A DNA stretch of 20,794 bases. It comes from a virus. The notes under the pieces are model-generated. The model had not been told where the DNA came from and did no database searches. It saw only the letters and a program-made list of their open reading frames with translations. The stretch spans positions 1-20,794 of the IMG/VR virus record IMGVR_UViG_3300034683_000339; one strand, written 5' to 3'. The translations under genes were made by a program, and so were the position numbers. Shown in pieces: positions 9,988 to 15,058 of the stretch. Each line of letters opens with the position of its first letter. The stretch's first letter is position 1.

Positions 9988-11469
9988 ATGGCAACCGGAC
10001 TTTCTGTCGACCGCGTGGTGCGCGTCACCGTCAACCTGTCGCCCATCGCCACGCCGCGTCGCAATTTCGGGGTGCTCTGCGTGGCGGGCGATTCGCCCGT
10101 CATCGACGCCCTGGAGCGCCTGCGCTTCTACACCACCCTGGACGCCGTGGCCGACGACTTCGGGTTGGACGCCCCGGAGTACCAGGCCGCCGCGCTGTAC
10201 TACGCGCAGAGCCCCCGACCCGCCGTGCTGGCCGTTGGCCGCTGGATCGCCGAGGACAGCCCCGCCATCCTGCGCGGCGGGGTGGCCGTCACGGAGCTGG
10301 CCGCCTGGACCGCCGTCGAAGACGGCGCCCTGGACATCGAGGTGGACGGGGTGGTGGCCGAGCTGCGCGGCCTGGACTTCTCTAGCGCGGCCAACCTCAA
10401 CGGCGTGGCCAGCGTCCTGTCCGCCGCTCTGGCCGGGGCCGGGCAGGCGGGCGCCGCCTGCGTGTGGGACGGGGGCCGCTTCGTGGTCACCACCCAGGCC
10501 GTCGGCTCCACGGCCTACCTGGGCTACTCCACCGCGCCCGGGGCGGGCACGGACGTGGGCGCCATGGCTGGCCTGACCCAGGCCCTGGCCTACACGCCCG
10601 TGCCCGGCGCGGACGCCGAGACCCCCGCCGAGTGCGCCGCCGCCCTGGCGGACCAGTCCGGCGACTGGTACGGCCTGCTGTTCGCCAGCCAGATCCCCGT
10701 CACTGACGATGCTCTGGTGGCCGTGGCCGCGTTCATCGAAGGGGCGGGCAAGAGCCGCGTCCTGGGCTGCACGGTGACCGACCGGCGTATCCTGAGCGCC
10801 TCGTTCACGACGGACCTGGGGTCGCGCCTGAAGGCCCTGGGTCTGGCCCGCAGCGTGGTGCAGTACAGCGCCAATCCGTATGCCGTGGCCAGCCTGTTCG
10901 GGCGGGCCTTCTCGGTGAACTTCAGCGGCAACAAGACCACCATCACCCTGAAGTTCAAGCAGCAGCCGGGTATCACCGCCGAGGCGCTCACCGAGAGCCA
11001 GGCCCAGGTGCTGGAGGACAAACACGTCAACGTGTTCGTGGCCTACGACAACGACACGGCCATCCTCCAGGAGGGCGTGGTCAGCTCCGGCGCGTTCTTC
11101 GACGAGATCCACGGCCTGGACTGGCTCCAGAACGCCGTGCAGACCGAGGTCTACAACCTGCTGTACACCTCCAAGACCAAGGTGCCCCAGACCGAGCAGG
11201 GCGTGGCGCGCATCGTGGCGAGGGTCGCCGGGGTGCTGGACCAGGCCGTGGCCAACGGCCTGGTTGCCCCCGGCACCTGGACTGCCGACGGATTCGGGCA
11301 GTTGCGCGAGGGCGACTACCTGCCCTCGGGCTACTACATCTACAGCCAGCCCATCGTGGATCAGGCCCAGAGCGAGCGCGAGCAGCGCAAGGCCCCGCCC
11401 ATCCAGGTCGCGGCCAAGCTCGCCGGGGCCGTGCATTCCGTGGACGTGCAGATCGACATCAACCGCTAA
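9988..11469 (+). CDS. Contractile tail sheath protein, DUF3383 family
   Basis: The 493-residue protein forms the outer sheath that contracts to drive the tube through the host envelope. It starts with a short strand (VVRVTVNLSP), as sheath subunits do for handshaking between neighbours. The block FGVLCVAGDSPVID...RFYTTLDAVADDFGLDAPEYQAAALYYAQ, in segments, is the DUF3383 signature. Later segments include NFSGNKTTITLKFKQQPGI, LEDKHVNVFVAYDN and a C-terminal PPIQVAAKLAGAVHSVDVQIDINR-type strand, read in parts. A strong GAGGAGG at 9975-9981 lies just before the start. It proves that the particle is a myovirus type if the genome is functional. Confidence 0.9.
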   Translation: MATGLSVDRVVRVTVNLSPIATPRRNFGVLCVAGDSPVIDALERLRFYTTLDAVADDFGLDAPEYQAAALYYAQSPRPAVLAVGRWIAEDSPAILRGGVAVTELAAWTAVEDGALDIEVDGVVAELRGLDFSSAANLNGVASVLSAALAGAGQAGAACVWDGGRFVVTTQAVGSTAYLGYSTAPGAGTDVGAMAGLTQALAYTPVPGADAETPAECAAALADQSGDWYGLLFASQIPVTDDALVAVAAFIEGAGKSRVLGCTVTDRRILSASFTTDLGSRLKALGLARSVVQYSANPYAVASLFGRAFSVNFSGNKTTITLKFKQQPGITAEALTESQAQVLEDKHVNVFVAYDNDTAILQEGVVSSGAFFDEIHGLDWLQNAVQTEVYNLLYTSKTKVPQTEQGVARIVARVAGVLDQAVANGLVAPGTWTADGFGQLREGDYLPSGYYIYSQPIVDQAQSEREQRKAPPIQVAAKLAGAVHSVDVQIDINR

Positions 11470-11484
11470 GGCTCAGGAGGCACC

Positions 11485-11934
11485 ATGCCCAGCTACAGCT
11501 TCGCAGACGTGGAAGCCGTCATCGACGGCCCCGGCGGCAACTTCTCCATCAAGGACGGCACGGCCAACGAGGGTATCGACATCGCCCCGGTGGGCGACCG
11601 GAGCACCATGACCCCCGGCGCCGACGGCTCGGTCATGCACAGCCTGTCCGCCAGCAGCGCCAGCGCCGTGACCGTGCGCCTGCTCAAGACCAGCCCTGTC
11701 AACGCGCAGCTCATGCAGCTGTTCAACCACCAGGTGGCCAGCTCCGCCCGCCATGGGCAGAACGTCATCACCGTGCGCGACGCCGCGCGGGGCGACCTGG
11801 TCACCGTGAGCCAGGCGGCCTTCAAACGGCCCCCGGCGATCAAATACGCCGTGGACGGCGGCATCCAGGAATGGGTGTTCGACGGCGGGTGGACCACCTA
11901 CGTGCTGGGCTCCGGCAGCCCCGAGGCGGAGTAA
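11485..11934 (+). CDS. Tail tube protein, DUF3277 (KPP10 ORF10-like)
   Basis: The 149-residue protein is the likely inner tube subunit, made in equal number to the sheath. The start YSFADVEAVIDGPGG and the block GADGSVMHSLSASSASAVTVRLLKTSPVNAQL, read in segments, fit the DUF3277 family found directly after DUF3383 sheaths. Further on are VITVRDAARGD and a C-terminal EWVFDGGWTTYVLGSG strand. AGGAGG at 11474-11479 is well spaced, and the gap after the sheath gene is 15 bases. The next gene follows after three bases. Confidence 0.85.
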   Translation: MPSYSFADVEAVIDGPGGNFSIKDGTANEGIDIAPVGDRSTMTPGADGSVMHSLSASSASAVTVRLLKTSPVNAQLMQLFNHQVASSARHGQNVITVRDAARGDLVTVSQAAFKRPPAIKYAVDGGIQEWVFDGGWTTYVLGSGSPEAE

Positions 11935-11937
11935 CCC

Positions 11938-12378
11938 ATGGGCAAGACCGTGACCGTCGCGGGACGCGACTACACCGTCGGGCGCCTGTCGGCCATGCAG
12001 CAGTTTCATGTGGTGCGCCGGCTGGCGGCTGTACTGGCTGGGGTGGACAACGCCCAGGAGTTGCATGCCACCCTGCGCGCCGGCGCTGAGGGGCTGGACC
12101 TGCTGCCCGCCCTGGCCAGGGGCGTGGCCGCCCTGGACGACGCACAGGCGGAGTTCGTGGTGCTGACCTGCCTGGGCGTTGTCCAGCGCCAGCAGGCCGG
12201 GGGCGGCTGGGCGGGCGTCGTGGCCGGTGGGCGCCTGATGTTCGAGGACATGGACCTGCCCGCCATGCTGACGCTGGTGGGCCATGTGCTGGCGGAGAAC
12301 CTTGGGGGTTTTTTCGCCGCCCTGCCGGGGGTGTCCCCCGGCGCGGGCCAGACGTGTCCGCCGAGTGGGTCGCAATGA
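11938..12378 (+). CDS. Tail assembly chaperone, short (0-frame) product
   Basis: This is the first of two overlapping frames between tube and tape measure, the standard place for tail assembly chaperones (lambda G/GT, P2 E/E'). The 146-residue protein begins VTVAGRDYTVGRLSAMQQFHVVRRLA, then is helical, with a C-terminal Gly/Pro-rich tail PGVSPGAGQTCPPSG. It should bind the tape measure and recruit tube subunits. Near its end the mRNA carries TTTTTTC (12309-12315) in the register T TTT TTC, followed by a strong hairpin. A -1 shift there would replace the last 20 residues by the DUF6889-like frame. The stop overlaps the next ATG (ATGA), so ordinary coupled reinitiation is also possible. Confidence 0.8.
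   Translation: MGKTVTVAGRDYTVGRLSAMQQFHVVRRLAAVLAGVDNAQELHATLRAGAEGLDLLPALARGVAALDDAQAEFVVLTCLGVVQRQQAGGGWAGVVAGGRLMFEDMDLPAMLTLVGHVLAENLGGFFAALPGVSPGAGQTCPPSGSQ
12309..12342 (+). promoter_or_regulatory. Programmed -1 ribosomal frameshift signal (slippery heptamer plus hairpin)
   Basis: The heptamer T TTT TTC (12309-12315) is in the correct zero-frame register of the chaperone gene, so both Phe codons can re-pair after a -1 slip. After an 8-base spacer comes a perfect 8-bp stem, GCCGGGGG (12324-12331) and CCCCCGGC (12335-12342), with loop TGT. The -1 frame then has no stop until 12560, passing through the whole DUF6889-like reading frame. P2 uses a near-identical heptamer (TTTTTTG) at the same place in its tail genes. 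All three parts of a classical signal are present; use in vivo is inferred. Confidence 0.8.
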
Positions 12379-12560
12379 GCACCGGCGAGGACTGGCTCCT
12401 GCGCCCCGTACTGGCCGGGTGCTGCCATTACGAATCGCTGGTGGACGGCACCCTGACCCTGGAGGATGTAGCCGTGATCAACGAAGCACTCGACGTGCAG
12501 GCCGAAAACGAGCGCCGCTACCTGGACGCCAAACGTCTGGAGTCGGGCCGTGGCTGCTGA
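12375..12560 (+). CDS. DUF6889-like tail chaperone extension (T part of a G/GT-type pair)
   Basis: Read from its own ATG at 12375, this is a 61-residue protein with the pattern WLLRPVLAGCCHYESLVDGTL, then VINEALDVQAENERRYLDA. It resembles the DUF6889 family (W..RP...G...yesL.dGtl.l.D....N.aLd...ENe.R). The open frame extends back without a stop to at least 12312, which allows fusion by -1 frameshifting: 126 residues of the upstream chaperone, then 81 in this frame, about 207 in all. In lambda the matching T domain contacts tube subunits while G coats the tape measure. The 3' end overlaps the tape-measure GTG by 11 bases. Whether the ATG is also used alone cannot be seen. Confidence 0.75.
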   Translation: MSTGEDWLLRPVLAGCCHYESLVDGTLTLEDVAVINEALDVQAENERRYLDAKRLESGRGC

Positions 12561-14184
12561 GGTTTTGCACGACTTCCTGGCCCGGCTGGGCTTCGAGGTG
12601 GACGGCGAGGGCGCCAAGCGGTTCAATGCCGCCCTGGCCACCTCGGCCACCCGCGTGGCCGCGTTTGGCGCGTCCATCCAGGCCATGGCCGTGGGCGCCT
12701 ACGCGGCCATCTACCGGGTCGCTCAGTCCAAAAGCGAAATGCTGGCCCTGGCCGACTCCGTGGGCGTGCCCGTGGCGCGCATCCAGGAGCTGGGCTACGT
12801 CGCCGAGGCCAACGGCGCGTCCGTCGACGCGCTCACGTCCTCCCTGGAGGGGCTGACCAGTTCCCTGGGGCAGGCGGCCATCGGCCAGGGCGGCGGACGG
12901 GAGGCCTTCCATCGCCTGAGCATCGCCGTACACGATGCCAATGGTCGGTTGCGCAACTCGGCGGACGTGCTCCTGGAGGTCGGCGACCGCCTGCGCGGGA
13001 TGGACCCGGCCAAGGCCAGCATGTTCATGGACCAGTTGGGCATCGACCGCAGCCTGCTGCGCATGGTGACCAGCGACGTGGACGGCCTGCGGGCCGCCTA
13101 CCAGCAGATGTACCAGGCCGTTGGCGTGGACGCGGACCAGGCCGCCGAGGACAGCCGGAAATTCGTCGGCGAGGTGGGCGCCCTCAAAGCCATGCTCCAA
13201 TTGGTGGCCGACGCCGTGGCGTCCATCTTCATGGGCCAGATGGGCGCCGATGTGCGGGCCTTCCGGGTCATGGTCCAGGACAACGTCGGCAAGATCGTTC
13301 CCGTCCTCAAGACGGTCATCGACGTGATCCTGCGCTTGGGCAAGGCCTTCGGTGCGCTCACCGCCCGCCTGCTTGGCTGGGTCGGGACCATCATTGACTG
13401 GTTCGGGCGGCTCGACGCCTCCACCCAGACGTTGATCCTGGGCGTGCTCGGTTTCGCGGCGGCCTGGCGGTACCTCAACCTGAGCTTCCTGCTCACCCCG
13501 CTGGGCGCCATCATCGCCGGGTTCGTGGCCTTGCTGGCTTTGATAGATGATTTCACGGTCTGGCGATCCGGCGGTGACAGCCTCGTGGACTGGGGCCCCT
13601 GGGCCGAGGACATCGACACCGTGGTCCAGGCCCTGGGCGTGTTGCTCTCCGCCCTGGGCCAGGTCTGGGACGTGGTCAAGGGGCCGCTGGTGCAGGCCCT
13701 GCGCGAGTTTTGGCAGTTGGCCATCGCCGTGTTCGGCGGATTGGTCGGCGCAGTGGCCAAGTTGGTGGTGGCCCTGGTGCAATTGTTCCAGGGCGATGTG
13801 TCCGGGGCGCTGGGCAGCCTGCTGGACGGGCTGGGGGCCCTGGGGCAGGCCGCCGACGCGCTGGTCGGGTATATCTTCAAGGTGTTTTCCGGCCTCGGGG
13901 ACGCAATCGGCGGCTCCCTGGGCTGGCTGGTGGAGGGCGTGGGCAAGCTGTTCGGGTTCCGGGCCGAGGCAGAGCCCGCGTCCCAGGGCGCCCCCGTGCT
14001 GGCCCCCAGCCCGACGCAGGCTGCGGCGGCCACGGCGGCGGGCGGTGGGGCGACCGTCAATGCCCAGACTACCATCCAGGTCTCCGGCACGGGCGAGCCC
14101 GAAGCCGTGGCCAGGCGCGTGGCGTCGTCGCAGGACCGCGTCAACGCCGACATGGTGCGCCATGCCAAGGGGGCGGCCAGATGA
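12550..14184 (+). CDS. Tail tape measure protein
   Basis: The 544-residue protein sets tail length and later leaves through the tube during infection. It is Ala/Gly/Leu-rich and helical, with an N-terminal FLARLGFEVDGEGAKRF...-type segment common to tape measures of this group. Two hydrophobic stretches could cross a membrane: about residues 294-336 (LILGVLGFAAAW, then LTPLGAIIAGFVALLALI) and about 391-412 (AIAVFGGLVGAVAKLVVALVQL). The last 80 residues are a Pro/Ala-rich linker and a short conserved-looking tail. The start is GTG at 12550 with GGAG at 12539-12542. The length is short for a tape measure; at the usual 1.5 angstroms per residue it implies a tail of roughly 80 nm. The stop overlaps the next ATG. 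Confidence 0.85.
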   Translation: MAAEVLHDFLARLGFEVDGEGAKRFNAALATSATRVAAFGASIQAMAVGAYAAIYRVAQSKSEMLALADSVGVPVARIQELGYVAEANGASVDALTSSLEGLTSSLGQAAIGQGGGREAFHRLSIAVHDANGRLRNSADVLLEVGDRLRGMDPAKASMFMDQLGIDRSLLRMVTSDVDGLRAAYQQMYQAVGVDADQAAEDSRKFVGEVGALKAMLQLVADAVASIFMGQMGADVRAFRVMVQDNVGKIVPVLKTVIDVILRLGKAFGALTARLLGWVGTIIDWFGRLDASTQTLILGVLGFAAAWRYLNLSFLLTPLGAIIAGFVALLALIDDFTVWRSGGDSLVDWGPWAEDIDTVVQALGVLLSALGQVWDVVKGPLVQALREFWQLAIAVFGGLVGAVAKLVVALVQLFQGDVSGALGSLLDGLGALGQAADALVGYIFKVFSGLGDAIGGSLGWLVEGVGKLFGFRAEAEPASQGAPVLAPSPTQAAAATAAGGGATVNAQTTIQVSGTGEPEAVARRVASSQDRVNADMVRHAKGAAR

Positions 14185-14729
14185 GCGTCCTGTCCAGCGC
14201 GCCCCAGCCCGTCTACGTCCGCCCGGCGCGCAGTATCGGCGGCATCGTCATGGACGTGACCGTGGAAGAGGCGCACACCGACGAGCTGGAGATCACCGAG
14301 CACCCGGTGCAGCAGGGCGCCAGCGTGGCCGACCATGCGTTCCTCTTGCCCGCCAAGGTGAGTATTACCGCCGGGGCGTCCGATTCCGGCGGCTCCGGGG
14401 GCGACCGCCGCTGCGTGGAAATTTACGAGGCGCTGCTGGATCTCCAGGGCAAGCGGGATCCGTTCGACCTGGTGACGGGCAAGCGGGTCTACCGCAACAT
14501 GCTGATCAAAAGCCTCTCCACCACCACCGACGAGCGCACCGAACGGGTGCTGTTGGTCACGGCGGAGTTGCAGGAGGTCATCCTGGCCACCGTGCAGACC
14601 GTGGCCGTGCCCCGGTCGCGCCAGCGCAACGCCCTGGCCACCGGCGGAGTGGACCAGCGCGGGCGCCAGCAGATGGAGCCCGTGCAACCCGGTAAATCCG
14701 CGCTCAAAATCGGCTCGGAGATTTTTTGA
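14181..14729 (+). CDS. Baseplate/distal tail protein, Dit-like
   Basis: The 182-residue product begins ARSIGGIVMDVTVEEAHTDELEITEHPVQQGASVADHAF, described in parts: a beta strand, a charged turn, and the E(I/L)T.HPV..GA.V.DHAf motif. That motif is characteristic of Dit-like phage proteins that replace the T4 gp48/gp53 position and sit between tube and hub. KRDPFDLVTGKRVYRNMLI and the TDERTERVLLVTAELQEV block are also typical, as these proteins contain a LysM-like or barrel core. The start is the ATGA overlap with the tape measure, far downstream of the first possible start in this frame. The following gene starts on its stop. Confidence 0.75.
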   Translation: MSVLSSAPQPVYVRPARSIGGIVMDVTVEEAHTDELEITEHPVQQGASVADHAFLLPAKVSITAGASDSGGSGGDRRCVEIYEALLDLQGKRDPFDLVTGKRVYRNMLIKSLSTTTDERTERVLLVTAELQEVILATVQTVAVPRSRQRNALATGGVDQRGRQQMEPVQPGKSALKIGSEIF

Positions 14730-15058
14730 TGGCCGCCGCGTACCGCATGCCCCTGACGCCTGTGCCGCAGACCCTGGAGGTCTCCCTGGCCGGAGCGGAA
14801 TACGCTTTGACCGTGCGCTACAATACCGCGCCCCAGGGCGGCTGGGTGCTGGACATCGATCTGCCAGACGACGCCGGGCCCGTGGTGGGCGGTGTGCCGC
14901 TGGTCACCGGCGTCGACCTGCTGGCCCCCTACGGACACCTGGGCATCGGCGGGCGCCTGGTGGTCTGGGCCGACGATCACGATCTGCCCCCGGGGCCGGA
15001 TGATCTGGGCCAGGGCGTGGACCTGTTGTTCGTGGTGCCCGAGGAGGACGACGCATGA
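14729..15058 (+). CDS. Baseplate plug protein, Pam3 gp18-like
   Basis: A 109-residue acidic beta protein: MPLTPVPQTLEVSLAGAEYAL, then VRYNTAPQGGWVLDIDLPDD, VGGVPLVTGVDLLAPYGHLGIGG and LVVWADD. The pattern (Q.f...L.g..y.l.l.yN...ggW.ldi.d..g..l..gvpLv.G.dLL..y..l) matches the small plug proteins described for cyanophage Pam3, which close the tube at the baseplate before infection. It lies between the Dit-like gene and the hub gene, as in related phages. The ATG shares a base with the upstream TGA, and the stop overlaps the hub start as ATGA. Confidence 0.75.
   Translation: MAAAYRMPLTPVPQTLEVSLAGAEYALTVRYNTAPQGGWVLDIDLPDDAGPVVGGVPLVTGVDLLAPYGHLGIGGRLVVWADDHDLPPGPDDLGQGVDLLFVVPEEDDA

Follow-up and report, generated by a model that had tools for sequence, protein, structure and literature searches.

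The G/GT frameshift of phage lambda is an established case of -1 ribosomal frameshifting, and frameshifting of this type is widespread among long-tailed phages; in lambda the G part binds the tape measure protein and the T part binds the tube protein, with a fixed ratio of the products (PMC5009743). An SD sequence located 5' of the slip site is a known stimulator of -1 shifts in dnaX and in many IS elements (PMC5009743). Among phage records, those of Klebsiella phage Mulock (MN098327, QFG06716/QFG06717) and of Burkholderia phage Magia (MT701587, QPB08697/QPB08698) carry the annotation 'tape measure chaperone frameshift product'. The Magia paper itself states a tape measure chaperone frameshift (PMC7883833), and a literature search on Mulock found no paper.

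The locus described here belongs to a 20.8-kb viral contig, the whole length of which was analysed and is referred to as the window. It is very probably a programmed -1 ribosomal frameshift of the lambda G/GT type in a contractile-tailed phage, with G and a G-T fusion as the predicted products. The principle is a textbook one, so that the locus is to be seen as a correct but, in kind, ordinary example of a known frameshift.

The tail module and its likely host

The gene order in the window can be read directly: the gene of a tube-like protein is followed by that of a TAC_15 chaperone, by the DUF6889 frame and by the tape measure gene, with the genes of a Dit-like protein, a Pam3 gp18-like plug and an E217 gp41-like hub further 3'. 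The main genes of the module around the locus are:

9988-11469, plus strand: tail sheath (PF11863, DUF3383, E 6.5e-139; phrog_205, tail sheath, E 3.1e-129)
11485-11934, plus strand: tail tube-like protein (KPP10_Orf10), the gene before the chaperone (PF11681, E 6.7e-42)
11938-12378, plus strand: 0-frame tail assembly chaperone (G half), Phage_TAC_15, 146 aa (PF21822, E 1.3e-21; phrog_1688, tail assembly chaperone, E 3.2e-28)
12550-14184, plus strand: tail tape measure protein, the next gene, overlapping the end of the T frame (phrog_2276, E 5.7e-63)

Judging from these matches, the module is that of a contractile tail. Among named relatives in genomes, prophages of Pseudodesulfovibrio and of Desulfovibrio come closest, and a sulfate-reducing host is therefore likely, the assignment being taken from the hosts of these relatives. 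A related prophage (L136) is that of Pseudodesulfovibrio pelocollis. Tail length follows the length of the tape measure protein at 1.5 Å per residue. By this rule the short tape measure protein of the window (544 aa, start codon apparently GTG) suggests a short tail of roughly 80 nm.

The two halves of the predicted chaperone fusion

The match of the G half to PF21822 is above the cut-off, and its AlphaFold model (pLDDT 87.6) has a chaperone-like fold: in the VIA comparison, the only PDB relatives listed are 5IR0 (Z 8.1) and the tail assembly chaperone of HK97, 2OB9, the latter with a moderate Z of 6.5 over 81 residues at 3.7 Å. A Foldseek search of the same model against the PDB returned no significant match. 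On the basis of the profile matches and of the model, the G half is a tail assembly chaperone with a predicted fold like that of 2OB9.

The -1 frame, in which the initial annotation had noticed a DUF6889-like sequence, does match the Pfam model of this family (PF21829, E 5.1e-14) with 52.2 bits, above the gathering cut-off of 23.9; it also matches phrog_4364, annotated as of unknown function. The model of the T half consists of short helices and one long C-terminal helix (pLDDT 86.4), and its comparison with BFVD yielded no significant or convincing viral fold match. Sequence searches of the PDB with both halves gave nothing convincing, no NCBIfam model matches the G or T half proteins, and a literature search on DUF6889 found no paper.

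The putative slip site in the window

The elements of the putative frameshift signal and of the second frame are:

12294-12297, plus strand: SD-like GGAG, 11 nt 5' of the heptamer (anti-SD duplex -6.6 kcal/mol)
12306-12312, plus strand: G GGT TTT, a second heptamer overlapping T TTT TTC
12309-12315, plus strand: slippery heptamer T TTT TTC, its phase set by codon boundaries 12310 and 12313 of the ORF at 11938-12378
12316-12323, plus strand: spacer of 8 nt from heptamer to stem
12324-12342, plus strand: stem-loop, in which 12324-12331 (GCCGGGGG) pairs with 12335-12342 (CCCCCGGC) over a perfect 8 bp, with the loop TGT at 12332-12334
12315-12560, plus strand: T half in the -1 frame after the slip, 81 residues and a stop (open frame with DUF6889)
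12375-12560, plus strand: candidate independent start at ATG 12375 for a T protein of 61 residues, which would replace the fusion or be made besides it
12423-12530, plus strand: DUF6889 core, profile positions 1-36 of 40, residues 38-73 of the translation of window positions 12312-12557

The initial annotation had described a complete signal, made of TTTTTTC in the register T TTT TTC, a spacer of 8 bases, a perfect stem of 8 bp and a -1 frame that meets no stop before 12560. Heptamer, register and spacer agree with the letters base for base, the stem is present in them as described, and the -1 frame is free of stops from about 12090 up to the TGA at 12558-12560; of the completeness claimed, heptamer, spacer and stem stand, but the SD-like element on the 5' side had been overlooked. 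The window has the components of a canonical -1 PRF signal, namely an in-phase X XXY YYZ heptamer, a spacer within 5-9 nt and a downstream stem (or, in other cases, a pseudoknot). Starting at 11938, the predicted fusion would comprise 126 + 81 = 207 residues with the junction ...GGFF-RRPAGG..., so that the earlier figure of about 207 residues and the FF-RRPAGG junction hold as arithmetic on the frames.

Over the main genes of the window, in which 4017 in-phase positions were scanned, the sole canonical X XXY YYZ heptamers are T TTT TTC at 12309-12315 and the overlapping G GGT TTT. A second T6 run is found at 14721-14731, at the TGATG stop-start overlap of the Dit-like and gp18-like genes, in a phase that is not canonical for a slip.

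Perfect 8-bp hairpins with loops of 3-8 nt, some of them overlapping, number 18 in the 20.8-kb window, and for this reason the stem by itself is weak evidence, which is not the case for its placement 8 nt behind the window's only heptamer. The 55 nt downstream of the heptamer have an MFE z of -2.2, and an Rfam scan of the window returned no match.

Conservation among homologous loci

Relatives were drawn from IMG/VR, GenBank phages and GTDB genomes, leading to 177 distinct loci with both halves that form 96 clusters at 70% identity; they are related by descent, so the counts do not stand for independent events, and the searches return the most similar loci, so that a different arrangement is possible in DUF6889 members that are very distant. 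In 175 of the 177 loci, which stem from isolates, genomes and metagenomes, the DUF6889 frame is -1 relative to that of the chaperone. The two exceptions are L125 (near 2441), with a slip run one T shorter than that of its close relatives, and L014, with a chaperone frame broken upstream. All clusters except L100 have a -1 frame that runs without a stop from the slip site across DUF6889, and closure by stops before the DUF6889 part, which the initial annotation had named as the observation that would speak against a fusion, is confined to that cluster. In L100 (near 2450) there is no canonical heptamer, and the -1 frame is not open where the slip site is usually placed.

Of the 96 clusters, 85 have an in-phase canonical heptamer at the homologous site. 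Synonymous recoding of the 0 frame would lead one to expect 8.9 ± 2.7, and scanning windows shifted upstream give 0-1 of about 96. By phase, the matches are 85 in phase 1, 26 in phase 0 and 4 in phase 2. A wider scan leaves eight of the 96 clusters without a canonical heptamer, several of which keep the near-canonical A CCT TTT or G CCT TTT. The type of heptamer varies by lineage (TTTTTTC, TTTTTTT, CCCTTTT, GGGTTTT, GGGAAAT, AAATTTT), which is what would be expected under selection for slipperiness and not for residues. A genome search with the Pfam model alone produced 15 loci, 10 of them new, with DUF6889 in the -1 frame in all 15 and a canonical heptamer in 13, the other two having G TTT TTT. 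By these counts (175/177 and 15/15), a general role of DUF6889 as the T half of such fusions, as suggested in the initial annotation, is well supported for the sampled family.

Structure 3' of the slip site is also a property of the family, in that the 55 nt that follow it have more structure than shuffled sequences (mean z -1.0, as against -0.2 for an upstream control, p 3e-5). The particular stem of the window is found at the same place in L003 and L168 and in weaker form in L138, L169 and L170; beyond these nearest relatives its conservation was not found, other relatives having different or no clear stems. An alignment of homologous loci had been proposed in the initial annotation as a check on the signal, and its outcome is divided: the heptamer keeps its position while its sequence type varies, but the stem is kept only in the closest relatives.

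On the 5' side, SD-like cores in 85 clusters show a sharp spacing peak at 11-12 nt before the heptamer, and across these clusters anti-SD pairing of the region is stronger than when its residues are recoded synonymously (-4.0 as against -2.7, p 2.6e-8). One shifted control window, 90 nt upstream, paired with the anti-SD even better than the SD-like region, so that raw pairing energy is not the support of the claim, which is carried by the spacing peak and by the recoding test. With these two results taken into account, the GGAG at 12294-12297 is a probable candidate for a 5' frameshift stimulator. In dnaX-like signals the stimulating SD-like sequence is placed 10-14 nt 5' of the heptamer, a range in which the 11 nt of the window falls.

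Alternative explanations

The DUF6889 frame might be a separate small gene instead of part of a fusion, with its start at ATG 12375, or at GTG 12354, and with an ATGA overlap that couples it to the chaperone gene. Indeed, the ATG at 12375-12377 overlaps the G stop TGA at 12376-12378, its anti-SD duplex amounts to -6.1 kcal/mol, and an ATG just before the core occurs in 42 of the 96 clusters, the window included. However, 53 clusters are without an ATG between slip site and core, and 36 have no ATG, GTG or TTG in the -1 frame over this stretch, so that in these 36 the fusion must be the route to DUF6889. Moreover, the SD strength before these ATGs (-2.7) is that of random sites (-3.0), as opposed to -7.3 at chaperone starts, and the conserved, phased heptamer would be left unexplained. 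A separate gene in place of the fusion is thus improbable. The -6.1 duplex and the ATGA overlap make it possible that, in the phage of the window, an extra 61-residue T product is made besides the fusion.

Slippage of the transcript on the T run, and not of the ribosome, has a smaller chance still of being what joins the two frames. It would fit the six-T run of the window and the seven T of many relatives, but other relatives carry C CCT TTT, G GGA AAT or A AAT TTT at the same place, the homopolymers are short when compared with the runs of about nine A or T of known bacterial cases (PMC5009743), and the phase of the heptamer is that of ribosomal slippage. The two frames could also be an artefact, with an indel brought into one intact gene by sequencing or assembly, or the remains of a decayed fusion; homopolymers are prone to error, and the missing T of L125 does break the frame relation. 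Against this, 175 of 177 distinct loci of such different provenance agree in the -1 relation, with no in-frame fusion seen among the loci compared; the explanation is thereby refuted, and practically no weight is given to it.

Proposed mechanism and meaning for DUF6889

Several features place the locus with the lambda G/GT type: its first product is predicted to be a tail assembly chaperone encoded between the tube and tape measure genes, the last part of this first frame is shared with a second one, in the -1 register, that has no stop across the slip site, and a conserved slippery site is located near the end of the first frame. A locus of this type would also be expected to make its two products in a fixed ratio and to leave neither of them in the mature virion. 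On the programmed-frameshift reading, most ribosomes would translate the 146-residue chaperone (G), and a minority would slip one base back on T TTT TTC, leading to the 207-residue G-T fusion with DUF6889 at its C-terminus. The stem-loop would aid the slip, and so, probably, would pairing of the anti-SD with the GGAG 11 nt upstream. If the two parts act as in lambda, coating of the tape measure protein would fall to G and recruitment of the tube protein to DUF6889, the tail being thereby built to the right length. That ribosomes slip here in the living cell, how often they do so and which partners G and T bind are points that we infer.

DUF6889/phrog_4364 is likely to be best read as the T domain of a tail chaperone fusion. 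We also consider it quite probable that the family as a whole (PF21829, phrog_4364) is not free-standing, and that it provides the T domain of frameshift-made chaperone fusions, with a three-part signal (SD-like element, heptamer and RNA structure), in contractile-tailed phages and prophages of Desulfovibrio-like hosts, Pseudomonadota and Synergistota. The gain is modest, in that a 'domain of unknown function' is given a concrete and testable role as the T half. The DUF6889 frame is also one that annotations repeatedly miss: of 40 GenBank phage records that match DUF6889, 12 have no gene at all annotated at that place.

Comparison with known systems

In the window, as in lambda G/GT, P2 E/E' and the HK97 chaperone, the chaperone gene has the tube gene on one side and the tape measure gene on the other, and close to its end a -1 shift takes place or, for the window, is predicted; it is the HK97 chaperone (2OB9) that the G model of the window resembles. 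The comparison with lambda rests on the G half and on the gene layout, the DUF6889 model having no convincing viral fold match. In E. coli dnaX the -1 shift leads to a truncated product at about 50%, whereas an extended fusion is predicted for the window. The signals have in common an SD-like element upstream, a slippery heptamer and a stem-loop downstream (PMC5009743). Mulock and Magia differ from the phage of the window in their hosts and in their heptamers, which are GGGAAAT/AAATTTT/TTTTTTG in Mulock and CCCTTTT in Magia, but share with it homologous chaperone and DUF6889 halves, the -1 relation between them and the same gene order.
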